55,122 nt of DNA. Source: an uncultured Gammaproteobacteria bacterium (GTDB lineage: Bacteria > Pseudomonadota > Gammaproteobacteria > Arenicellales > CAJQKF01). The stretch's first letter is position 1. Each line of letters opens with the position of its first letter. Shown here in pieces: positions 1 through 17,821 of the stretch. A program made the translations under genes and the position numbers. The stretch spans positions 1 through 55,122 of the forward strand of contig CAJQKF010000035.1 of assembly GCA_905478855.1 (NCBI GenBank), read 5' to 3'. The notes under the pieces are model-generated. The model ran no database searches. It saw nothing but the letters and a program-made list of their open reading frames with translations, and was not told the origin of the DNA.

Positions 1-1144
1 AGCCTTCAATTAAACGATCTATTCCCTGTTTTGCTACAGTGGGCTCAAGAGCACCATAAGAAGCTCGTATAAAACACCCATTTTCCATTCCAAATGCCTG
101 TCCTGGCACAGTTGCCACACCGTAATCCTGGATTAACTTTTGAACGACCTGCATGTCTTTTAGATTTGAATCATTAATTCTAAAAAATACATAAAACGCC
201 CCTGTTGGGCTACAGTGGTCAATGGATGAAATAGTTTTAAGTCCGCCAAGGAAATATTTTCTTACCGAGCCGAGGCCTTCAATCATAGGTGCGCAATAGG
301 AACTACCAGCTTTCAAGCACTCTAAGGCAGCATATTGGCTAATAACGGGCGGACAGATGACATTGGTGTCCTGAATTTTTCGAATGGCAAGGAACATCTG
401 CTCTGGTACAACCATATATCCCATGCGCCAGCTGGCTAAACTGTAACTTTTACTAAGGGAGAATAGGGAAATTGTGTGGGAAGCCGCATCATCTAGGGAT
501 GCTGCAGAGAAATGCGCGGCCCCATCATGACAAAAATATTCATAGGCTTCGTCACTAATATGGAAAATTCCACGTTGTCTGCATAAGTTATTTACAGCGG
601 TCAAATTTTCCTGGGTATATACAACACCCGTCGGGTTGTTGGGTGATACCGTAACTATGGCCCTTGTTCTATTAGTAATCGCTTCTTCAAGTGCAGTTAA
701 GTCTGGTTGATAGTCCTCATTTGAATCTACGGATACTGGTATGCAGTTAACCATGCGAATGGCCATTTCATGGTTGAAATACCAAGGTCGTATGAGTATT
801 ACTTCGTCGTCTGGATCGCAAATGGCTAGAATAGCGTTCAGAAATCCCATATTACTTCCGGCGGTAACAACAATTTCATTCAGACGATTCTGAATTTTGT
901 TGTCGCCAATTAGTTTATGCCGAATACTTGCTCGAAGTTCTGGGATTCCTTCAACAAATTGGTATCGAAAGTTTTCCGGATCGCTATTGAATTTTGCAGG
1001 TGCGGAAAAAACGCTATCAGGAGGATCATAATAAACGACCCCTTGCCCAAGACTGATTGTCCCGGGGTTAGCGGCGATTAAATCTCCAACGGTAGGGATA
1101 ATTGGCGTTTGTACCGCCTTGATACGATTTGACAGCATTTGCAT
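1..1144 (-). CDS. class I/II PLP-dependent aminotransferase (3' end outside the window)
   Basis: Reading the minus strand from an ATG at 1144 gives at least 381 open codons running off the left edge. The protein begins MQMLSNRIKAVQTP and has fold-type I aminotransferase landmarks: SLGQGVVYYDPP near the N-terminus, SPNNPTG, SDEAYEYF, and the Schiff-base lysine in SLSKSYSLASWRMGY. It should transfer an amino group between an amino acid and a 2-oxo acid in the cytoplasm. The substrate cannot be read from sequence; aspartate, aromatic and methionine aminotransferases all share these motifs. A second ATG two codons downstream (1138) is equally possible because neither has a strong ribosome-binding site. 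It is divergent from the large gene at 1461 across a 316-base gap. Family assignment is firm and specificity is open. Confidence 0.88.
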   Translation of the reverse strand, partial: MQMLSNRIKAVQTPIIPTVGDLIAANPGTISLGQGVVYYDPPDSVFSAPAKFNSDPENFRYQFVEGIPELRASIRHKLIGDNKIQNRLNEIVVTAGSNMGFLNAILAICDPDDEVILIRPWYFNHEMAIRMVNCIPVSVDSNEDYQPDLTALEEAITNRTRAIVTVSPNNPTGVVYTQENLTAVNNLCRQRGIFHISDEAYEYFCHDGAAHFSAASLDDAASHTISLFSLSKSYSLASWRMGYMVVPEQMFLAIRKIQDTNVICPPVISQYAALECLKAGSSYCAPMIEGLGSVRKYFLGGLKTISSIDHCSPTGAFYVFFRINDSNLKDMQVVQKLIQDYGVATVPGQAFGMENGCFIRASYGALEPTVAKQGIDRLIEG

Positions 1145-1460: not shown

Positions 1461-4310
1461 TTGGAAGATCATCAAACAAATAAACAAGCAGACTCCGGTC
1501 TGCAAACATCACAACATAACTCTATGATTGATGCCGAATACGTATCCGCCCCTCTGAAAAACGGCACACAAGTTGGCGATACAACAATAAAAGCACTGGT
1601 TTGCGCAAGTTTTAGCGGCTATACCTACATAGGTTTCAAATCGGGGGTTAAGAATCCGCATATTATGCAGGAATATTTTCCTGCCGAAATAAGTGTTCGT
1701 GATTCAGATCATGTCGCTTTATTACTGCGAGATGAATCGGTTAGTCATGAATTTGAGTTTGGACTAAGACGATTTACGCGACTTGCCAAAACACTGCAAA
1801 CAAAAAATGGCAAAGTAGTATCCGTTGCGGAACAAAATGATACTGTTTATTATGTAGCTGACTTTGATTTTCGATGCACATTCAAATCAATTATAGAGAG
1901 TGGTAAGCGTGTTCCAGGTGAAAACATTGTTCAGTGGTTAAAAAACTGCTTAGAATATTTAGATCAGCCCCATCATTTTAATTTGTTACATTTGGGGATT
2001 CAGTCTGATTCTATTTTGATTGATGCCAATGGTGAAGCAATCTTAGTTGGTTTTAACAGTGTAGGACCCTCGTTTACTATCGATTCAAGTAGACCCGAGT
2101 ATACCTATTTGCCCATAGAGAGAATTCGAGCCGACGCTGAAATGCTTCCTGCTAGCGACTTTTACTCGTTAGCAGCAGTTCTTTTACATGGGATGACGGG
2201 GCGTGAACCAGTCCATGCAGCGCGCAGAAGTGGCGCAGTAGCAGCGGGTCGAGCTGATCCGCTTGCTGAACAATTCTCGGAATTGGAAGATCTCTATGAT
2301 AAAAAACTTTTATCAGTCCTCAAATGGATGCTTTTACCACAGCCTATGGAGCGTCCTCAATCAGTTGAACAAATTTTTGCCAAATTGAGTGGCAATGATA
2401 AAGAATTTACACCTGCTGTTAGAAAAACAATTCCACAAGCAAAACAACAGCAAAGTAAACTCGTGCAACCTGAAAAAGGTTCACCCTCGCTAGAGAAACA
2501 AACGGATCAAACTCCAGTCCCAATGGCCGAAACACTTGAGCCTGTTGATCAACATAAAGTAGCAAACGAAATCACTTCCAAAAGCGCCGTGGTTGAGATC
2601 CCTGAGTTATCAGAACTGCATGAGCGAACGCCGCAAAATTGGTTTCAGGACGAAGACGAAAGGCATACCAGAACCAACATTCTTTCCTTAGTTTCGAACT
2701 CCCCGTATACTTGGTTTGTGGTTGCTGTTTTATCGATTTTACTCGCATGGTGGTGGCTAGGAACTGATGCCACCAACCAAAATGTTATTGATTCTACTAA
2801 TGATGTGCCGAGTATAAACGTAGTTCCACGATCTGAAACTCCAGCCAAACCGACAACTACGATAGAGCAAGAACCAACAACAGCAAGCAGTATTGAGTCG
2901 AGCATTGAAAAGTCACCTCTTGATTTACCGATTGATAGTGGCGAATCATCTTCCCCACAGATAGTGTTGGAGCCCGAATCAGAAATTTCTGAAATAGGCG
3001 ACGCTGAGCGTGCACAACGGTTTGAAAAGCTAGCCGCACTGGAACGAAGACTTGAACCCTATCTTGTCGAGGCTGATGCTCATTTTCAAAACGGACGATT
3101 ATTAGAGCCAGGTAATGCTAACGCGTTAAAAAGCTACGAAAAAATCCTTTCTATGGATGCTGAAAATAGCACTGCGAAAGCCGGGATAAAAGCAATAATT
3201 GAGAGAACACTAACGAGCACGGATAGCTTAATAAAGAACGGAGATATAGACTCGGCTAAAAACAATCTCGCCCGACTTAGCGAAGTTTCCCCTGGAAATA
3301 GTAAAATTGAGGAACTTCAGCGGTCTATTAACGAAATAGTCCTTCAGCAGCAATTAGAAGCCGAGGCTGTCAGAAAAGAACAAGAAAAATTAGCCAAGTT
3401 AGAACAAGAAGAAGAAAGCAAACGTCAATCATTACAAAGCCTAATGAGCAAAGCAATTTCAAGTTTCGATTCTAGTCAACTTGTTGAACCACCATTAGAA
3501 AATGCGCTCTATTATTATCGTAAAATGCTGGAACTGGATCCGAGCAGTATTCCTGCATCGGCAGGAATAGCACAGATTGCAGCTACTTTTCTGCGTCAGG
3601 CAAAACAGTCAATTGGAATTAGTGACTTTGATATTGCAGATCGAAACCTAACAACAGCGGCTGCGATAGATCCTAGCAATGCAGAGATTCCAATATTGCG
3701 ATCTCAAATTAATACGCAACGAAGACTAGCAGAACAAGAACGTATAGCCTTGCAAGAGGCCGAGTTACGACGTGGTGAGGCTGAAACGGCCGCGAATCAA
3801 CAACTACAGCTCAATTTACAGTCTGGAATAAAAGCCTATTATGATGGCGAATATATTGAATCTTATAACTATTTAAAACCCCTCTCAGACCGGGGTGTTG
3901 CACGAGCTCAATTTCGTGTGGCAATGATGTACGAGTACGGACGAGGTTTGCAACCGAACAAAGCCGAAGCTAGAAAACTATTTCTAGTAGCGCTAGAGGA
4001 CATTCGCGAGCTTTCAAAGTCAGGGGTGTCTTGGGCTCAAGCTGATCTTGGATCCTATTACGAGGATGGAATTATAATTAATCAAGATTATCGAACCGCA
4101 GCAAATTGGTATTACCAATCGGCCGAACAGGGCTACTCCGGTGCTCAGACAAATTTAGGCGTACTTTTTGCAAACGGACACGGCGTGAATCCGGATATGA
4201 AAAAAGCTGTCGAATGGTTTAAGCGAGCAGCACTGCAAGGCGATCGCGTCGCTAAAGAAAACCTGACAATTCTTGGATATGACCCTGAGAAAATAATTCT
4301 TGGCGAGTAA
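1461..4310 (+). CDS. membrane protein: kinase-like (pseudokinase) domain, TM segment, TPR-like duplication, Sel1 repeats
   Basis: A 949-aa protein from a TTG start; an ATG at 1524 (residue 22) is the alternative, and neither has a good ribosome-binding site. Residues about 40-310 follow a bacterial Ser/Thr kinase plan: an EYFP-x-R-like N-lobe motif (residues 69-80), a catalytic-loop equivalent at 177-190, a YLPIERIR segment replacing APE, and SDFYSLAAVLL. The catalytic residues are replaced: Gln70 where the ATP lysine is expected, Gly179 for the HRD aspartate, Val196 for the DFG aspartate. A charged linker leads to one transmembrane segment (about 417-437). Then come a duplicated TPR-like module, a Gln/Glu-rich coiled coil, and C-terminal Sel1-type repeats (about 790-940). 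I infer a membrane-anchored scaffold or sensor with its kinase-like domain in the cytoplasm and repeats across the membrane. Its partner is unknown. Confidence 0.75.
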   Translation: MEDHQTNKQADSGLQTSQHNSMIDAEYVSAPLKNGTQVGDTTIKALVCASFSGYTYIGFKSGVKNPHIMQEYFPAEISVRDSDHVALLLRDESVSHEFEFGLRRFTRLAKTLQTKNGKVVSVAEQNDTVYYVADFDFRCTFKSIIESGKRVPGENIVQWLKNCLEYLDQPHHFNLLHLGIQSDSILIDANGEAILVGFNSVGPSFTIDSSRPEYTYLPIERIRADAEMLPASDFYSLAAVLLHGMTGREPVHAARRSGAVAAGRADPLAEQFSELEDLYDKKLLSVLKWMLLPQPMERPQSVEQIFAKLSGNDKEFTPAVRKTIPQAKQQQSKLVQPEKGSPSLEKQTDQTPVPMAETLEPVDQHKVANEITSKSAVVEIPELSELHERTPQNWFQDEDERHTRTNILSLVSNSPYTWFVVAVLSILLAWWWLGTDATNQNVIDSTNDVPSINVVPRSETPAKPTTTIEQEPTTASSIESSIEKSPLDLPIDSGESSSPQIVLEPESEISEIGDAERAQRFEKLAALERRLEPYLVEADAHFQNGRLLEPGNANALKSYEKILSMDAENSTAKAGIKAIIERTLTSTDSLIKNGDIDSAKNNLARLSEVSPGNSKIEELQRSINEIVLQQQLEAEAVRKEQEKLAKLEQEEESKRQSLQSLMSKAISSFDSSQLVEPPLENALYYYRKMLELDPSSIPASAGIAQIAATFLRQAKQSIGISDFDIADRNLTTAAAIDPSNAEIPILRSQINTQRRLAEQERIALQEAELRRGEAETAANQQLQLNLQSGIKAYYDGEYIESYNYLKPLSDRGVARAQFRVAMMYEYGRGLQPNKAEARKLFLVALEDIRELSKSGVSWAQADLGSYYEDGIIINQDYRTAANWYYQSAEQGYSGAQTNLGVLFANGHGVNPDMKKAVEWFKRAALQGDRVAKENLTILGYDPEKIILGE

Positions 4311-4434: not shown

Positions 4435-5319
4435 CTATAGTACCTCACCTGCACTAATTCCATTCTGCAGGCAAGTTGCCTCTACAGTATTACGTAATAA
4501 GCATGCAATGGTCATTGGACCGACACCACCGGGAACGGGGGTAATTGCACCGGCAACTTCACTTGCTGAAGAGAACTCCACATCGCCCACTAGTTTTGTT
4601 TTTCCATTTTCACCAGCAATTCGATTAATTCCAACATCGATGACCGTTGCCCCGAGCTTAATCCAGTCACCCGTTATCATTTCTGGACGGCCAACAGCGG
4701 CGACCAAGATATCTGCTTGTTTGCATACTTCTTGCAAATCTTTTGTTCTGGAATGAGTTATTGTAACAGTGCAACTTTTTGCTAGTAGTAGTGCGGCCAT
4801 AGGTTTACCAACTATATTTGATCGACCCACAATAACAGCATTCGCACCGGTTAAATCGCCGAGATAGTCTTCCAACAACATTCGACATCCAAGAGGTGTA
4901 CAAGGCACTAAACCGGGAGCGCCAGTATTAAGTCTACCGACATTTATCAAATGAAAACCATCAACATCTTTATCAGGATTTATGGCATTTATAACCGCAG
5001 TTTCATTAATCTGGGCGGGCAGCGGTAGTTGAACAAGTATACCGTTTACCTTTGGATCATTGTTTAGTTGATCTACAATCTTAAGCAACTCTTCCTGTGT
5101 TGCAGTATCTGGGAGCTTAAACTCAAAGGATTCCATTCCCGCTTCAATGGTCTGCTTGCCCTTATTGCGGACATAGACTTGACTTGCCGGATCCTCACCA
5201 ACTAACACCACAGCTAAACCGGGCTTAACCCCGTGTTTATTTTTTAGTAACGCAACACTTTTTGCAATATCTACCCTGAGATTGGCGGCAAATGCCTTAC
5301 CATCAATAATATGAGCCAT
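4435..5319 (-). CDS. folD: bifunctional methylenetetrahydrofolate dehydrogenase/cyclohydrolase FolD
   Basis: The 294-aa protein matches the usual FolD length. It converts 5,10-methylene-THF to 5,10-methenyl-THF with NADP and then hydrolyses it to 10-formyl-THF in the cytoplasm. Visible landmarks are the catalytic Tyr49-Lys53 pair in VYVRNK, the nucleotide-binding [11 protein letters not shown] segment, and the C-terminal VPGGVGPMT signature. The ATG at 5319 has a strong AGGAG ribosome-binding site about seven bases upstream, which settles the start. It converges on the large membrane protein gene and is divergent from ccmA. It joins the folate pool fed by gcvTHP and the demethylating flavoprotein elsewhere in the window. 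Confidence 0.96.
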
Positions 5320-5496: not shown

Positions 5497-6108
5497 TTGA
5501 AAACTTTAGAAGTTGATAATATTTCCTGCATAAAAGGAGATCATGAGCTATTCAGTCGTTTTAGTTATTCTTTTTTGTCTGGTCATAGCTATCATGTCGT
5601 AGGCGAGAATGGCGCAGGAAAAACGAGCTTTCTAAAGATTCTTTGTGGAATTGCTAGACCCGATTCTGGTCGCATTACATGGTCTGAACTCGATATTCAT
5701 CAAAATATTGAACATTATTTGCCGGATCTTCTTTACATCGGACATAAGAACGCGGTAAAGAGCGAGTTAACAGTCATTGAAAATCTCTCTTTCTCGTCCA
5801 ATTTGCATGTTTCAAAAATCAACACTGAGTTGTTAAATGTAATCGATCAATGTGAACTTTCAGGCTATGAGAATGTTCCCTGTAAATACCTGTCACTTGG
5901 ACAAACTAGACGTGTCGCCATTGCTAGACTGTTTATCGAATCGGCATCTATTTGGCTATTAGATGAACCAATCAACGGACTGGATATAAAAGGAGTTGCA
6001 TTGTTTATACAACTTGTGAATAAACATACTGGCAATGGTGGCATAGTTGTATTTACTAGCCATCAGTTGCTCGACTTAAAGAATCAACATCAGATCCGCT
6101 TGGTATAG
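5497..6108 (+). CDS. ccmA: cytochrome c maturation heme-export ATPase CcmA
   Basis: A 203-aa single-domain ABC ATPase of normal CcmA size. Walker A is GENGAGKTS, the signature is LSLGQTRRVAIARL (the QxRR form typical of CcmA), and Walker B is IWLLDEPINGLD. With CcmB it forms the ATPase and membrane core that releases heme-loaded CcmE during periplasmic cytochrome c assembly. The start is TTG at 5497; no ATG is available that would leave the N-terminal strand intact, and there is no clear ribosome-binding site. ccmB follows after 11 bases. The usual downstream ccmCDEFGH genes are missing from this locus. Confidence 0.92.
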   Translation: MKTLEVDNISCIKGDHELFSRFSYSFLSGHSYHVVGENGAGKTSFLKILCGIARPDSGRITWSELDIHQNIEHYLPDLLYIGHKNAVKSELTVIENLSFSSNLHVSKINTELLNVIDQCELSGYENVPCKYLSLGQTRRVAIARLFIESASIWLLDEPINGLDIKGVALFIQLVNKHTGNGGIVVFTSHQLLDLKNQHQIRLV

Positions 6109-6119
6109 AACTGAATACA

Positions 6120-6788
6120 ATGTGGAAGCACTTTACAATAGTCGTTGGCAGGGATTTAAGAATTGCATTTCGAAATCCAGGTGACTTTTTAAATCCACTG
6201 ATGTTTTTTGTAATTATCACTTGTCTGTTCCCATTGGGTATTGGCAGCAGTCCTCAGCAACTTGCAGAGGTTGCTCCCGGAATTGTCTGGGTGACTGCCC
6301 TACTTTCAACTTTATTGGGTTTAGAAGGATTGTTCAAGCAAGATTTCGAAGACGGTTCGCTTGAGCAACTATGTTTGGCGCCCACTCCCTTATCATTACT
6401 CGCATTTGGGAAAATAACCGCGCACTGGTTGATTTACGGATTACCGATTGTAATCATGAGTCCATTAATCGGAGTTTTACTTCACTTAGATTCTCAAGCT
6501 TTTGTAACACTAGTTCTAAGTTTATTACTTGGCACGCCAAGTTTAAGTTTGATCGGTGCTATTGGTGTTGGATTAACCGCAGGCTTAAGGCGAGGCGGAG
6601 TTCTTCTCACTTTATTGATTTTACCTTTGTATATTCCGATACTGATTTTTGGTGCTAGTGCGATACAGTCCGCGGCTCTAGGCTTCGATGCCACAGGTCA
6701 ACTTTATATTTTATCCTCGCTACTAGTGCTGTCACTCATTACAACACCATTTGCCACGGCTGCCGCTATTCGAATCACCATTAATTAA
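6120..6788 (+). CDS. ccmB: heme exporter membrane protein CcmB
   Basis: A 222-aa, strongly hydrophobic protein with about six membrane segments and the characteristic CcmB opening: a basic RDLRIAFRNPGD amphipathic stretch before the first helix, then a FPLGIG turn. It is the permease partner of CcmA, 11 bases upstream, in the inner membrane. The reading frame is intact and of normal length. The gene ends the transcription unit, facing djlA with 40 bases between stop codons, so ccmC and later genes must lie elsewhere if this organism uses System I. Confidence 0.92.
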   Translation: MWKHFTIVVGRDLRIAFRNPGDFLNPLMFFVIITCLFPLGIGSSPQQLAEVAPGIVWVTALLSTLLGLEGLFKQDFEDGSLEQLCLAPTPLSLLAFGKITAHWLIYGLPIVIMSPLIGVLLHLDSQAFVTLVLSLLLGTPSLSLIGAIGVGLTAGLRRGGVLLTLLILPLYIPILIFGASAIQSAALGFDATGQLYILSSLLVLSLITTPFATAAAIRITIN

Positions 6789-6819
6789 ACGAGGGACAGA
6801 CAAACGTAAGAAATGAATT

Positions 6820-6838
6820 GAGAAACGATTAGTTTCTC
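6820..6838. terminator. hairpin between convergent ccmB and djlA
   Basis: GAGAAAC at 6820-6826 pairs with GTTTCTC at 6832-6838 across a five-base loop and is followed on the plus strand by a short T-rich stretch. It overlaps the djlA stop codon (6829-6831). The position suggests termination of the ccmAB transcript. The stem is short and AT-rich, so it is only a modest candidate. Confidence 0.35.
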
Positions 6839-7608
6839 TTTCGTGACTTTCGCACTAAATCATAGGCTTGTCGAATTTCTTGGGATTTTGTATTAGCCAG
6901 CTTCAGCATTTCCTCTGGCATACCTCGAGCGACTAGTTTATCAGGATGGTGCTGATTCATTAGTCGACGATAGGATTTCTTAACCTCCGCATCAGTGTGG
7001 TCAGGCGTAATTCCCAACAGCTGATAGGCGCGTTTTAAAGTATCGGCATCGGTTTCAAATGCTTCCGCAGCCGAACCCAAACCTTGCGCAAGACGTAATA
7101 GATGATCAAATTTGCTCGAGGAAAAGTGCAGTTTCTCGGAAATTTCGATCAATAATTCACGTTCCTTAGTATGTAGTTCACCATCGGCCATTGCCGTCAT
7201 AATTTGAATTTCTATAAAGAATTGAACCAAATTACGACTTCTATGGCATTCAAGACGAAATTGCTCCAGAACTCCGGGCAAATCAAAGTCGTCGGCTTTA
7301 CCTGCGGAAAAAAGCTGCATTGCAGCTTTTTGCTGAGCGTCGTCCAAACTCATTTGCAACATTATCTTACGGGCATGACCAATCTCTAATTCCGATACTC
7401 GTCCATCAGATTTTGCCACTCGACCCATAACTGCAAATGTTGCGGTGAAGAACGCTAACTGTGTAGTTTCAGTAATATCTTCGTCTGCTTGTAGTTGTGC
7501 GAAGCCCTTATCGAATTGATGCCCAAATACAAGACCTAACAGCACGCCCAGTGGTCCGCCCAGCATGAAACCGAACGCACCACCGGCTAATTTCCCCCAC
7601 CACGACAT
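6829..7608 (-). CDS. djlA: DnaJ-like membrane-anchored co-chaperone DjlA
   Basis: A 259-aa protein close to the usual DjlA length. The N-terminus carries one glycine-rich membrane segment (GGAFGFMLGGPLGVLLGLVFG), the middle is an acidic helical TerB-like domain (about residues 50-170), and the last 65 residues are a J domain with the HPD tripeptide in NQHHPDK. Known DjlA proteins recruit DnaK to the inner-membrane surface and stimulate its ATPase. It is transcribed after ilvD with 25 bases between them, so the two may share a message. The domain order is diagnostic. Confidence 0.93.
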   Translation of the reverse strand: MSWWGKLAGGAFGFMLGGPLGVLLGLVFGHQFDKGFAQLQADEDITETTQLAFFTATFAVMGRVAKSDGRVSELEIGHARKIMLQMSLDDAQQKAAMQLFSAGKADDFDLPGVLEQFRLECHRSRNLVQFFIEIQIMTAMADGELHTKERELLIEISEKLHFSSSKFDHLLRLAQGLGSAAEAFETDADTLKRAYQLLGITPDHTDAEVKKSYRRLMNQHHPDKLVARGMPEEMLKLANTKSQEIRQAYDLVRKSRKRN

Positions 7609-12202: not shown

Positions 12203-13180
12203 ATGTATTCTCAAGTAATTGACGAACAACCTGTGAGCTCCGATGAGTTAAATGCCCAAGAAGCTTTATTTCAAGAAAAAATCGATAACGATATAAAAAT
12301 CGAACCTCGCGACTGGATGCCGGACGGCTATCGAAAGACACTTATTCGACAAATATCCCAACATGCTCATTCTGAAATCGTCGGGATGCTGCCGGAAGGA
12401 AAGTGGCTAACACGAGCACCAAGCCTAACTCGCAAATCCATCTTACTTGCAAAAGTTCAGGATGAAGGTGGACATGGACTTTATCTCTATAGCGCAGCCG
12501 AGACCCTTGGAGTAACCCGAGATGAGATGTATTTAGCTTTACATTCTGGGAAAGCCAAATATTCTAGTATTTTTAATTACCCAACCCTTACATGGGCAGA
12601 TATAGGTGTTATCGGCTGGTTGGTTGATGGCGCAGCGATTATGAATCAAGTACCACTGCAACGTTGTTCCTACGGACCTTATGCGAGAGCCATGGTCAGA
12701 ATTTGTAAGGAAGAAAGTTTTCATCAACGCCAGGGTTTTGAAATGCTAATCACGCTTTGTAAAGGCAAACCTGTGCAAAAGGCAATGGCACAGGATGCAT
12801 TGAATCGTTGGTGGTGGCCGAGTTTAATGATGTTTGGTCCGCCTGATGCAGACTCGGTGCATAGTGCTCAGTCGATGCGCTGGAAGATTAAGATGAACGG
12901 TAATGACGAGTTACGACAAAAATTTGTTGATGTCTGTGTACCACAAGCGGAATTACTCGGATTAACTATTCCTGATAATAAAATCATTTGGAACGAAGAG
13001 TGGCAACAACATGATTTTGGCGAAGTAAACTGGGACGAATTCTATAATGTACTTAAAGGCAATGGCGTATGTAATCGTGAACGACTGAAAGCACGAGTTG
13101 ATGCATGGGAAGACGGCGCTTGGGTTCGAGATGCGGCTAAAGCTTATGCAGTAAAAAGACAACGGAGCAGTAGTTTATGA
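12203..13180 (+). CDS. paaA: 1,2-phenylacetyl-CoA epoxidase, catalytic subunit PaaA
   Basis: The 325-aa protein is a ferritin-like diiron oxygenase subunit. PaaA with PaaC forms the core that epoxidises the ring of phenylacetyl-CoA using O2. It shows the expected diiron helices: [12 protein letters not shown], then [17 protein letters not shown] with the E-x-x-H pair, and [14 protein letters not shown] with the second E-x-x-H pair. Length is close to the usual PaaA. The ATG at 12203 follows no clear ribosome-binding site. It opens a tight operon; its stop overlaps the paaB start by four bases (ATGA). Confidence 0.97.
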
Positions 13181-13458
13181 GTGAGTGGCCCTTATGGGAA
13201 GTTTTTATTCGAAGCCAACACGGATTGGCCCATCGACATGTTGGAAGTTTACACGCCCCAACCTCTGAAATGGCTGTATGCAATGCCCGAGATGTTTATA
13301 CACGCCGCAATGAAGGCGTGAGCATATGGGTAGTAAAATCCGCGGATATCAGTGCGAGTGAGCCAAATAATAAAGATATGTTGTTTGAACCGTCTCATGA
13401 CAAAATATTTCGGCATCCTACCTTTTACGACTTACCTGATGATGTCGATTACATGTAG
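13177..13458 (+). CDS. paaB: 1,2-phenylacetyl-CoA epoxidase subunit PaaB
   Basis: A 93-aa protein of normal PaaB size, starting [24 protein letters not shown], which is the family hallmark split here by words: WPLWEVFIR, then [12 protein letters not shown]. It continues with the A[10 protein letters not shown] block. PaaB is a small non-catalytic bridge subunit of the epoxidase multicomponent complex. The ATG overlaps the paaA stop by four bases, implying translational coupling, and paaC follows after 11 bases. Confidence 0.96.
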
Positions 13459-13469
13459 ACCTTTATGAC

Positions 13470-14216
13470 ATGAATAATAATATAGAAGAACTGTCTCTTT
13501 CGCTATTTATGGGCGATAACAATTTGATCCTATCTCATCGTCTTAGCGAGTGGACAGGGCATGCTCCGGTTTTGGAGGAAGAACTGGCATTAGCCAATGT
13601 TGCACTGGATCTTTTAGGCCAAGCTAGAATGTGGCTGGAATATGCTGCTGAGATAAGTGAAGATTATAAGACTGCTGACGATTTGGCTTATAAAAGAGAA
13701 ATCTGGGAATTCCGAAACGTTGCACTAGTTGAACAACCAAACGGACATTTTGGCGATACTATTGTCCGACAATTTTATTATGATAATTGGCATAAACTCA
13801 TTCTTGAACACTTATATCAAAGCGAGAACGAGCGCATAGCGGGTATCGCCGAAAAATCTCTGAAAGAGGTGCGCTACCATCTTGAAAGAAGCGCACAATG
13901 GACCGTGTTGCTAGGCGATGGCACTGAGGAAAGTCATAATAAACTACAAACGTCAGTTAATCACTTTTGGCCTTATGCTTTGGAACTTTGCAATACGAAC
14001 ACAGCTAATTCTGGGTTCGATGATGATTTAGCATCACTATCCAGACAAACTTGGATTGATTCACTCAGTAACATAATTGCCGAAGCTACACTGCAGTTAC
14101 CAGAAACAGAATTTTCTTATTCCGGTGGGCGTGAAGGAATTCATACTGAACATCTTAGTTTGATACTGGCAGAAATGCAGTGCTTGCCCCGAGCGTATCC
14201 TGGCACACAGTGGTAG
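13470..14216 (+). CDS. paaC: 1,2-phenylacetyl-CoA epoxidase structural subunit PaaC
   Basis: A 248-aa ferritin-like protein that pairs with PaaA but lacks the full diiron ligand set, as is normal for PaaC. It shows the GDNNLILSHRLSEWTGHAP opening, LDLLGQARMWLEYA, and KEVRYHLERSAQW. It stabilises the catalytic subunit and contributes to CoA-substrate binding. It sits between paaB and paaD with almost no spacing; the paaD start comes two bases after its stop. Confidence 0.96.
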   Translation: MNNNIEELSLSLFMGDNNLILSHRLSEWTGHAPVLEEELALANVALDLLGQARMWLEYAAEISEDYKTADDLAYKREIWEFRNVALVEQPNGHFGDTIVRQFYYDNWHKLILEHLYQSENERIAGIAEKSLKEVRYHLERSAQWTVLLGDGTEESHNKLQTSVNHFWPYALELCNTNTANSGFDDDLASLSRQTWIDSLSNIIAEATLQLPETEFSYSGGREGIHTEHLSLILAEMQCLPRAYPGTQW

Positions 14217-14218
14217 GT

Positions 14219-14686
14219 ATGATGCAACACGATGATATTTGGAAAATTCTTGAAGGCATTCCTGACCCCGAAATTCCCGTAGTTTCAATTGCCGAGCTTG
14301 GCATGATACGCGGAATAGACTTCGACGATACCGGCACTGAGGCGATTAGTATTACGTTATCTCCAACTTATAGTGGATGCCCTGCTACCGACACAATTAT
14401 CTCCGATATTAAAAACACCTTATTCGACAAAGGATTTAAAAATACAACCGTAAAAATACAACTTTCACCTGCCTGGACTACCGACTGGATATCAGCGAGT
14501 GCTATTTCCAAGTTAAGGGCCTATGGGATAGCCCCTCCCTTACCGAGAGGAGAAAGCCAACCCGAATGCCCGCAATGTAATTCTACTAATACTCAATTAG
14601 TATCCCAATTTGGATCAACTCCATGCAAATCACTGCATTGTTGTATGAGCTGTTTGGAACCATTTGACTATTTTAAATGCCATTAA
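14219..14686 (+). CDS. paaD: PaaD, MIP18/SufT-family protein with zinc-ribbon tail
   Basis: A 155-aa protein from ATG 14219, immediately after the paaC stop; a GTG at 14180 inside paaC would add an atypical extension. Residues about 1-90 form a DUF59/MIP18-like domain (DPEIPVVSIAELGM, then TYSGCPATD), and the C-terminus has four cysteines in CPQC and CMSC separated by the FGSTPCK motif. PaaD is thought to help assemble or insert iron cofactors for the Paa epoxidase; it is needed for activity but is not a subunit of the catalytic core. Its place in the order A-B-C-D-E is canonical. Confidence 0.94.
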   Translation: MMQHDDIWKILEGIPDPEIPVVSIAELGMIRGIDFDDTGTEAISITLSPTYSGCPATDTIISDIKNTLFDKGFKNTTVKIQLSPAWTTDWISASAISKLRAYGIAPPLPRGESQPECPQCNSTNTQLVSQFGSTPCKSLHCCMSCLEPFDYFKCH

Positions 14687-14700
14687 GATAACCCAAAAAC

Positions 14701-15774
14701 ATGTCGACTCTCTTTCATCCTTTGACCGTGACAAAAATTGAACAGAATACTCGTGATTCGATTGTTGTAACCCTAATTCCTGAAGATAGTCATGAAGACA
14801 CCTTTACCTATTTACAAGGCCAACACCTAACCTTGCGTGCGATGGTAAACAACGAAGAAATGCGTCGATCTTATTCCATATGCAGCGGCGTGCAGGAGCA
14901 ACAGCTTCGGATCGGTATTAAACAGATTGCCGATGGTGCATTTTCCAATTGGGCTGCAGAGAACCTTAAGGTCGGTTACCAAATTGATAGTCTTGTGCCA
15001 ACTGGAAATTTTCGTATTGAACTCGAATCAACAGCGCGAAATCGCTATGTTGCATTTGTTGTCGGCAGCGGAATAACACCGATATTAAGTATTATTAAAT
15101 CCACACTTAAAGCAGAACCACACAGCCAATTTACGCTTTTTTATGGAAATCGTTCTTCATCGAGCATCATGTTCCGAGAGGAAATTGATGATCTTAAGAA
15201 TAAATATCTGCAACGTCTTCAAGTCATACATGTATTGAGTCGTGAAAAACAAGATATTGCGATGTTTAATGGCAAATTAGATAAACAGAAATGTTTGCAT
15301 CTACTGAAACATTGGTTCGGAGAAAGACCCTTGAGTTATGCTTTTTTATGTGGACCTCAGACTATGATGGCACAAACAGAAGAAGCGTTGAAAGAGTTCG
15401 GGGTTAAGGCTGACAATATAAAGTATGAACTGTTCGCAAACCCTTTACAGCAAATGAGTTCCATTAGGGAACAATCGTCGAATAAGGACTGTAACGAACA
15501 TACCCTGCTCTTAACTATAGACGGGAGGCAGCATCAATTACAGATGGGAACCGGCCAACAATCTGTACTCGACACAGCAATTATGAACGGCATCGAAGTG
15601 CCATACGCTTGTAAAGCAGGTGTATGTTCAAGCTGCAAAGCCATGCTGGTTGATGGAAATGTGGAGATGGACGCAAATTTTGCGCTGGAAGACTACGAAA
15701 TAGAACGTGGTTATGTGCTGACATGTCAAAGCTACGCTATATCTTCTACGTTAAGCATTGATTACGACCAATAA
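14701..15774 (+). CDS. paaE: phenylacetyl-CoA epoxidase reductase PaaE
   Basis: A 357-aa NADPH-dependent reductase supplying electrons to PaaAC. The N-terminal half is a ferredoxin-NADP reductase module: flavin-binding RRSYSICSG and nucleotide-binding VGSGITPILS followed by FYGNRSS. The last about 90 residues are a plant-type 2Fe-2S ferredoxin with CKAGVCSSCKAM and a distal LTCQS cysteine. All four cluster cysteines are present. It lies 14 bases after paaD. Domain order and length match the family. Confidence 0.96.
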   Translation: MSTLFHPLTVTKIEQNTRDSIVVTLIPEDSHEDTFTYLQGQHLTLRAMVNNEEMRRSYSICSGVQEQQLRIGIKQIADGAFSNWAAENLKVGYQIDSLVPTGNFRIELESTARNRYVAFVVGSGITPILSIIKSTLKAEPHSQFTLFYGNRSSSSIMFREEIDDLKNKYLQRLQVIHVLSREKQDIAMFNGKLDKQKCLHLLKHWFGERPLSYAFLCGPQTMMAQTEEALKEFGVKADNIKYELFANPLQQMSSIREQSSNKDCNEHTLLLTIDGRQHQLQMGTGQQSVLDTAIMNGIEVPYACKAGVCSSCKAMLVDGNVEMDANFALEDYEIERGYVLTCQSYAISSTLSIDYDQ

Positions 15775-15802
15775 CAAACACGCTAGCTGAACTATTTCCC
15801 CT

Positions 15803-17821
15803 ATGTCTATTTTGAAACTTCAGAGCCTGGTTGCAAATAAATGGGTTGATACTGGTCCGGTAAGACGAGAGTTACTTGATCCTGTTACTCAGGAACCGAT
15901 TGCTTTTTTACAAGATGGTTTACCCGATTTTTCGGAAATGCTGTATTACGCAAGGAATATAGGTCGAAGTAATATTCAATCTCTGACCTTTCACAAACGC
16001 GCCCTACTCCTAAAAAAACTAGGTGTTTTTCTGCTTGAGCACAAAGAAAAGTATTATGAACTTTCGACACGCAGTGGTGCGACAAGAACGGACTCCTGGA
16101 TTGATATAGATGGCGGCATTGGAACGTTATTTACTTATTCCGGGAAAGGTCGAAGAGAGTTGCCCAATTCCTTTCATGTTATTGACGGTGATCCGGAAAT
16201 TCTGTCTAAGGACGCTACGTTTATTGGTCAGCATGTTTATTCACCGCTAGAAGGTTCTGCAGTGCATATAAATGCGTTTAATTTTCCTTGCTGGGGAATG
16301 CTTGAAAAATTTGCACCGTGTTTCCTTGCCGGTATGCCTAGCATCATAAAACCGGCTTCTCAAACATGTTACATAACAGAAGCAATAGTACGTGATATTG
16401 TTTCGTCGAACATATTACCTTTGGGATCACTCCAACTTGTTTGTGGTGATGTAGGAGCGTTACTAAAACAACTGAATTATCAAGATGTCGTAACATTTAC
16501 CGGTTCCCAGGCCACTGGCAGAATCATTAAGACAAACGCTTGTCTCATTGATAATAACGTTCGTTTTCATATGGAAACCGATTCTTTAAACAGCATTATC
16601 TTAGGTCATGATGTTACGTCTGACAGCCTTGAATTTCGGATGTTTGTTCGTGAAGTGGTGACGGAAATGACGGTTAAGGCGGGACAAAAATGCACTGCAA
16701 TTCGTCGTGTCATCGTGCCGGAATCAATCAAAGATATCGTAGTCGAGAAACTCAAGGAACGACTTGCTCAGGTGAAGATTGGTGATCCGCGTTTGCTAGA
16801 AACAAAAATGGGCCCACTCGCAAGTATATCGCATAGAGAGGATGTAACTCGCGAAGCGGAAAAACTTGCCGCAAGCTGCGAAACAGTTATAGGCGCAATA
16901 GAATCACACTCGAATGCATTTACCGAACCGGTGGTTTTTCTTAGTCAGTTACCAACAACAGAGTGTCCGTCGAATTTAATCGAAGTATTTGGTCCGATGT
17001 GCACTATTCAAACCTATCAAAATGATGACGAGGCTATTGATATTGCTCGAGCAGGAAAAGGCAGCCTGGTTGGCTCGATCGTTAGCAATGATAGAAATGT
17101 AACAACTAAACTTATAGACGGACTATTTGCCCACCATGGACGACTTCTGGTTTTAAATCGACATTGCCAAAAAACGTCAACCGGTCATGGTTCTCCCCTT
17201 CCTGTTCTTCTTCACGGCGGACCCGGACGCGCTGGTGGCGCAGAAGAACTCGGCGGTTTACGAAGTATTTACGCGTATATGCAACGCACCGCCATTCAAG
17301 GGCATCCAGATATGCTAACCAGCATTTGTCAAAAATGGCTACCAGGGGCAACTAAAAATCTAACTCATAAACATCCTTTTCAAATGCATTTCGATGAACT
17401 GTCAATCGGTGATTCTCTTCGCACAAAGTCTAGAAAAGTTTCACTTGACGATATTGAACATTTCGCCCATTTTACCGGGGACCGATTTTATGCTCATATG
17501 GACGAAGCATTGGCTCGTGCAAACCCATTCTTTGAGGGGCGTGTGGCTCATGGTTATTTCATTATATCTGCTGCTGCTGGCTTATTCGTAGATCCTGAAC
17601 CGGGGCCGGTTTTAGCCAATTACGGTCTAGAAAGCCTTCGATTCACCCAACCGGTTTATCCGGACGATGAAATAACCGTGTCGCTTACATGTAAACACAA
17701 AACTGCCCGTGAAGGGGAACGATATGGTGAGGTCCGTTGGGATACAACCGTGCTAAACCAGGATAATTTAGTGGTTGCGCAATACGATGTGTTAACTCTT
17801 GTCGAACAATCGAGTCATTAA
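15803..17821 (+). CDS. paaZ: bifunctional oxepin-CoA hydrolase/semialdehyde dehydrogenase PaaZ
   Basis: A 672-aa fusion. Residues about 1-520 are an aldehyde dehydrogenase (NAFNFPCWG, FTGSQATG, and the nucleophilic cysteine in GQKCTAIRR), which oxidises the semialdehyde intermediate. The C-terminal about 140 residues are a MaoC-type hot-dog hydratase (FTGDRFYAHMD, FEGRVAHGYFI) that hydrolytically opens the oxepin-CoA ring. Both halves look intact. It follows paaE by 28 bases. Within this window the pathway stops here: ligase PaaK, isomerase PaaG and the later beta-oxidation genes are not present. It converges on yjbQ with 26 bases between stops. Confidence 0.96.
   Translation: MSILKLQSLVANKWVDTGPVRRELLDPVTQEPIAFLQDGLPDFSEMLYYARNIGRSNIQSLTFHKRALLLKKLGVFLLEHKEKYYELSTRSGATRTDSWIDIDGGIGTLFTYSGKGRRELPNSFHVIDGDPEILSKDATFIGQHVYSPLEGSAVHINAFNFPCWGMLEKFAPCFLAGMPSIIKPASQTCYITEAIVRDIVSSNILPLGSLQLVCGDVGALLKQLNYQDVVTFTGSQATGRIIKTNACLIDNNVRFHMETDSLNSIILGHDVTSDSLEFRMFVREVVTEMTVKAGQKCTAIRRVIVPESIKDIVVEKLKERLAQVKIGDPRLLETKMGPLASISHREDVTREAEKLAASCETVIGAIESHSNAFTEPVVFLSQLPTTECPSNLIEVFGPMCTIQTYQNDDEAIDIARAGKGSLVGSIVSNDRNVTTKLIDGLFAHHGRLLVLNRHCQKTSTGHGSPLPVLLHGGPGRAGGAEELGGLRSIYAYMQRTAIQGHPDMLTSICQKWLPGATKNLTHKHPFQMHFDELSIGDSLRTKSRKVSLDDIEHFAHFTGDRFYAHMDEALARANPFFEGRVAHGYFIISAAAGLFVDPEPGPVLANYGLESLRFTQPVYPDDEITVSLTCKHKTAREGERYGEVRWDTTVLNQDNLVVAQYDVLTLVEQSSH

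Follow-up and report, generated by a model that had tools for sequence, protein, structure and literature searches.

A membrane-anchored EYxP-type pseudokinase fused to TPR-like and Sel1 repeats, a candidate envelope scaffold in an uncultured gammaproteobacterium

Domain layout and kinase fold

What could a bacterial protein do with a kinase-like domain that has lost its catalytic residues and is joined by a membrane segment to repeats of the TPR and Sel1 type? This question is raised by the ORF at 1461..4310 (+ strand) of the window, i.e. the whole stretch of 55,122 nucleotides from an uncultured gammaproteobacterium of the order Arenicellales (contig CAJQKF010000035.1) analysed here. The ORF encodes 949 aa in the order pseudokinase, linker, transmembrane (TM) segment, TPR-like units and Sel1 repeats. 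Its TTG start was favoured over the ATG at 1524 because the N-terminal stretch can be aligned with the two nearest homologues (EDHQTNKQAD/DDNRTDKQAD/DDKRPDKQQE in the three sequences). Of 60 relatives, 57 contained a match to the protein at E<=0.001, in many cases through the Sel1 repeats only, and when contigs were searched with the full 949-aa protein, Sel1 proteins of distant bacteria were the only matches.

The kinase-like domain is encoded at 1563..2387 (+, residues 35-309). The window protein alone matched Pfam Pkinase with 2.5e-8, and the best solved relative of the domain was Serratia PpkA (3e-10). A profile of 20 homologous kinase-like domains (A1), each of which matched Pfam Pkinase by itself, gave 7e-60 over 274 positions to Serratia PpkA (5hnv) and an hhalign E of 3e-89 over 275 columns to a second profile of 15 active EYxP kinases (A2). 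Since these matches extend over the whole domain and include the E-Y-x-P, they assign it to the kinase-like fold of the EYxP/PpkA subgroup, and an earlier note on this DNA, made from the sequence, was thus right that the overall plan of EYxP-type Ser/Thr kinases is kept. The single-sequence AlphaFold2 model of the kinase region had a pLDDT of 33.6, so the fold assignment rests on the profile evidence. With the PpkA-type kinases the domain also shares the position of the E-Y-x-P after beta3 and a C-lobe signature resembling GPWTDxYxLG.

The domain is followed by a low-complexity linker (2391..2708, +, residues 311-416), for which omega was mostly 0.2-0.9 in the aligned linkers of homologues, and by a single TM helix predicted by hydropathy scan (2709..2765, +, residues 417-435). 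Behind it are two TPR-like units of 88 aa each with a mutual identity of 34% (E 6e-14). Unit 1 (3069..3332, +, residues 537-624) matched Pfam TPR_19 weakly (0.0011), as is generally the case for TPR matches in this protein; unit 2 (3450..3713, +, residues 664-751) is supported by Pfam, repeat comparison and the AlphaFold2 model. This model of the C-terminal part, calculated without an alignment, was all-helical with moderate confidence. The Sel1 repeats (3813..4250, +, residues 785-930) were found by Pfam in three stretches (1.2e-23), above the cut-off that defines a Sel1-repeat protein, and matched solved Sel1 proteins with 2e-50. Within the family no other part is as well conserved. The single TM segment, the TPR-like units and the Sel1 repeats had all been named in the earlier note and were recovered. 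Both repeat types, Sel1 and TPR, serve as interaction modules.

Loss of the catalytic residues

PpkA retains the Lys, HRD, Asn and DFG; the window protein does not. In the alignment of both, the beta3 (VAIK) Lys is replaced by Gln70 (codon 1668..1670, +) within IMQEYFP, and HRD by His177-Leu178-Gly179 (1989..1997, +), Gly179 standing in the place of the Asp. Both replacements had been read in this way before. The DFG motif is lost as well, as previously claimed; the residue assigned to it, Val196, has to be corrected, because the Asp aligns with Gly197, one residue later, and the motif is replaced by Gly197-Phe198-Asn199 (2049..2057, +). Furthermore, Ser184 is found at the position of the catalytic-loop Asn, Leu at that of the alpha-C Glu, and the glycine-rich loop (GxGxxG) is gone. 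Thus, beta3 Lys, HRD Asp, DFG Asp and Gly-rich loop, the marks of an active bacterial Ser/Thr kinase, are all missing from the window domain.

The window copy could be merely degraded if its homologues kept the Lys and both Asp residues. This was examined in 41 fused homologues from the order (window included), 39 of which cover beta3. Lys was found at this position in none of the 39, which have Gln (36), His (1), Arg (1) or Glu (1). The DFG Asp was absent in 40/41 and present in L066 alone, the HRD Asp was present in 12/41, ten of these in family f2, and the catalytic-loop Asn in 11/41. APE Glu and alpha-F Asp were invariant (41/41). All 28 active controls, including a solo kinase from the window's own genome, possess Lys, alpha-C Glu, HRD Asp, Asn and DFG Asp. 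The order-wide loss of the beta3 Lys and the DFG Asp speaks against a degraded copy, and on this comparison it is well supported that the window domain is a pseudokinase rather than one decayed copy. This does not extend to the third position: the HRD Asp is kept in the f2 relatives, and its loss is therefore, as judged from the alignment, lineage-specific.

In the tree of kinase domains the pseudokinases of f1 and f3 formed one clade (100/98), those of f2 a separate one (99/98), and the active kinases a group apart (99/99); the long branches L058 and L066 were poorly placed. The Lys is lost and the Gly loop degraded in all fused families, and the HRD Asp is gone in f1 and nearly all of f3 and retained in f2. 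This pattern suggests that the catalytic residues were lost stepwise. The fusion gene of G037 is broken into two ORFs, one with the kinase part and one with the Sel1 part (L069 8609-10354 and 10386-10928), probably by a frameshift or an assembly error.

Comparison with known kinases, pseudokinases and Sel1 proteins

A 2025 review names seven bacterial pseudokinase families, ActPs1, ActPs2, ActPs3 (MviN), GLW, DLHK, CP1 and DYD; it makes no mention of Sel1, TPR or EYxP (PMC12599244). By its descriptions, the families are conserved and bacterial like the one studied here, several also having a TM segment after the kinase domain. DLHK proteins are described there as lacking a TM segment and keeping the HRD Asp, in contrast to the TM helix at 417-435 and the HLG of the window protein. 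GLW proteins carry GLW for HRD and LLLL/W for the beta3 Lys motif, where the window protein has HLG and IMQEY; DYD proteins have Arg for the beta3 Lys and the DYD motif instead of Gln70 and GFN. CP1 proteins contain a COG3899 ATPase domain and no TM segment, whereas Pfam found only Sel1, TPR and Pkinase in the window protein, which has a TM segment. The features checked set the window sequence apart from four of the seven published families, DLHK, DYD, CP1 and GLW. The hallmark of ActPs3 (MviN) is given as an activation-loop deletion with actinobacterial constraints (PMC12599244). Our literature search, which covered open-access texts, found no papers on kinase-Sel1 proteins.

A role in type VI secretion, as known for PpkA, was rejected as unlikely, because the T6SS protein VipB had no match in the window's genome (G000, 94% complete); it had none in 8/9 relatives either. 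The anti-phage kinases MAD6 and PD-T4-6 have a kinase-like domain in common with the window protein. The NCBIfam MAD6 match (49.7 bits vs a cut-off of 460) and the PADLOC match to PD-T4-6 were attributed to similarity of the kinase domains, and no defence genes were found among the examined neighbours of the gene.

Three systems resemble the protein in layout or parts. EssB/YukC of type VII secretion is, according to the review, a TM pseudokinase that has lost all three motifs and is used as a scaffold; the likeness is one by description, EssB/YukC being a secretion component of Firmicutes without a Sel1 part described there (PMC12599244). A member of this group would be expected to be homologous to EssB and to lie in a T7SSb locus; the neighbours of the window gene are metabolic and ccm genes. 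PodJ, a scaffold protein of Caulobacter, has an interaction region in the cytosol and, across a single TM segment, a Sel1 domain in the periplasm (PMC9926476). This is a likeness of layout, the cytosolic part of PodJ being coiled coil and disordered instead of a kinase fold. The Sel1 protein ExoR regulates ExoS by binding (PMC7327166). The window protein shares Sel1 repeats with it and matched the NCBIfam ExoR model with 1.8e-7, but at 30.7 bits versus a cut-off of 450, and it has a kinase fold and a TM segment in addition.

Proposed role

Together, the domain order, the conserved catalytic loss, the purifying selection and the core status of the TM-TPR-Sel1 part (see below for both) point to a non-catalytic, bitopic scaffold of the inner membrane with a cytosolic pseudokinase as docking module, a reading that we consider rather probable. 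The N-terminal EYxP kinase fold would lie in the cytoplasm. Devoid of the residues for ATP-Mg binding and phosphate transfer, it would presumably bind no ATP and is probably kept as a protein-docking module. The flexible linker and the one TM helix would connect it to an exported superhelix of TPR-like units and Sel1 repeats, which, judged by the architecture and the analogues, may bind a partner in the cell envelope. The likeliest role would then be to link a client in the envelope, bound by the Sel1 part, with another in the cytosol that docks on the pseudokinase, much as is proposed for EssB/YukC and PodJ in other systems. We infer scaffolding, topology and partners from the architecture and from EssB/YukC, PodJ and ExoR, and by this analogy the term "signalling scaffold" used in the earlier note is plausible.

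The main rival to this reading is that the pseudokinase serves as allosteric partner or anchor of an active Ser/Thr kinase. Most obviously this would be the solo EYxP kinase of the same genome, a protein of 302 aa encoded between yicC and rph (G000:C152; L124; L144 5842-6750). It is catalytically intact, with all catalytic residues, and the genome's only other Pkinase-family match above cut-off. Its best matches in other genomes, about 40-80% identical, are spread across much of the order, and its orthologues were counted by hand in 63/73 genomes with a TM-TPR-Sel1 protein vs 9/36 without. This co-occurrence is, however, confounded by phylogeny and includes the kinase-less forms, too. Moreover, both genes are unlinked, and in genus g18 the fusion is kept while no orthologue of the solo kinase was found, other kinase-like matches being present. 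We therefore regard such a partnership as rather unlikely.

Alternatively it might be that the domain has residual activity, either because a lysine elsewhere has taken over, as in WNK kinases, or because it uses another chemistry, as SelO or SidJ do. The HRD Asp in 12 and the Asn in 11 of the 41 homologues would fit, and DLHK pseudokinases with a similar pattern of loss were modelled as ATP-binding (PMC12599244). The window's own family, however, has none of Lys, HRD Asp, Asn, DFG Asp, alpha-C Glu and Gly loop, which makes residual catalysis improbable.

The proposed scaffold spans the membrane. If the Sel1/TPR part remained in the cytoplasm instead, the TM segment would be an anchor only and partners would be scaffolded on one side of the membrane. 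The charge asymmetry around the TM segment is indeed weak; in the window two K/R flank it before and one after, which lends weak support to an N-in topology. On the other hand, K/R are commoner before than after the segment not only in the window but also in 5/7 other homologues checked, and the kinase-less forms mostly consist of a short N-terminal tail followed by the TM segment. A short N-terminal tail and then a TM segment is a usual layout for C-terminal export. A cytoplasmic Sel1/TPR part thus appears quite improbable.

Kinase-less relatives and selection

The TM-TPR-Sel1 part, the conserved core of the family, was also found without a kinase domain, namely in members of f8 and f10 and in G050 of f2; kinase-less sequences cut by contig ends (L071, L090, L103) were excluded from the losses. 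The f10 genes share ccmA-ccmB downstream with the window gene, which supports their orthology to it. In pairs from f1, f2 and f3, pairwise omega of the kinase domain was about 0.06-0.15, with one exception among the comparable pairs (L045/L040, 0.72, a distant pair with near-saturated divergence that was disregarded). In these three families, the window's among them, this is about as low as for the part from the TM segment to the C-terminus. A kinase domain without catalytic residues and yet with such omega values is maintained by selection. Accordingly, although the TM-TPR-Sel1 part persists alone in f8, f10 and G050, it is most improbable that only this part matters and that the kinase domain is just carried along while it decays, for its omega is too close to that of the core and the beta3 Gln is itself nearly invariant.

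With a confidence a little short of even, we further propose that the Q-E-Y-x-P domains could constitute an undescribed, order-wide family of bacterial pseudokinases, with lineages at different stages of catalytic loss, placed on an envelope-spanning TPR/Sel1 scaffold which two families use without it. The pseudokinase would then be an input from the cytosol that a conserved machine of the envelope can do without. As there are natural variants without the pseudokinase and relatives with the HRD Asp, the contribution of the dead kinase domain can be tested by deletion, swap and comparison of lineages.

Gene neighbourhood

Upstream of the fusion gene lies a divergent PLP aminotransferase gene (2..1144, -, cut by the window edge), a position that it also has in genomes of f1 and f3. 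The convergent downstream neighbour is folD (4435..5319, -), followed by ccmA-ccmB (5497..6788, +). The latter genes lie downstream in f1 and in most f10 loci, the kinase-less orthologues, and ccmAB is downstream of the fusion gene in G001, of the window's family, too. Other neighbours, whose names outside the window are a reading of the sequences, were a HIT-family gene in f3, DadA-like and aldehyde dehydrogenase genes in f2, and PPK2 and ccm genes in f10. A function based on an operon was rejected, as the neighbours vary by family and name no pathway.

In G001 and G002, two relatives from the window's family (L038, L039), a PhoB-PhoR-Pst cluster is located between the fusion gene and folD, which is absent there in the window. 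In the window (5497-7608), the gene after ccmA-ccmB is of the TerB-DnaJ (djlA-like) type and lies on the other strand, so that the remainder of the ccm operon does not follow directly, as it does in most f10 relatives. Genes of phenylacetate degradation (PaaA/C-like, PaaC, a reductase and PaaZ) were found further downstream at about 12203-17821.
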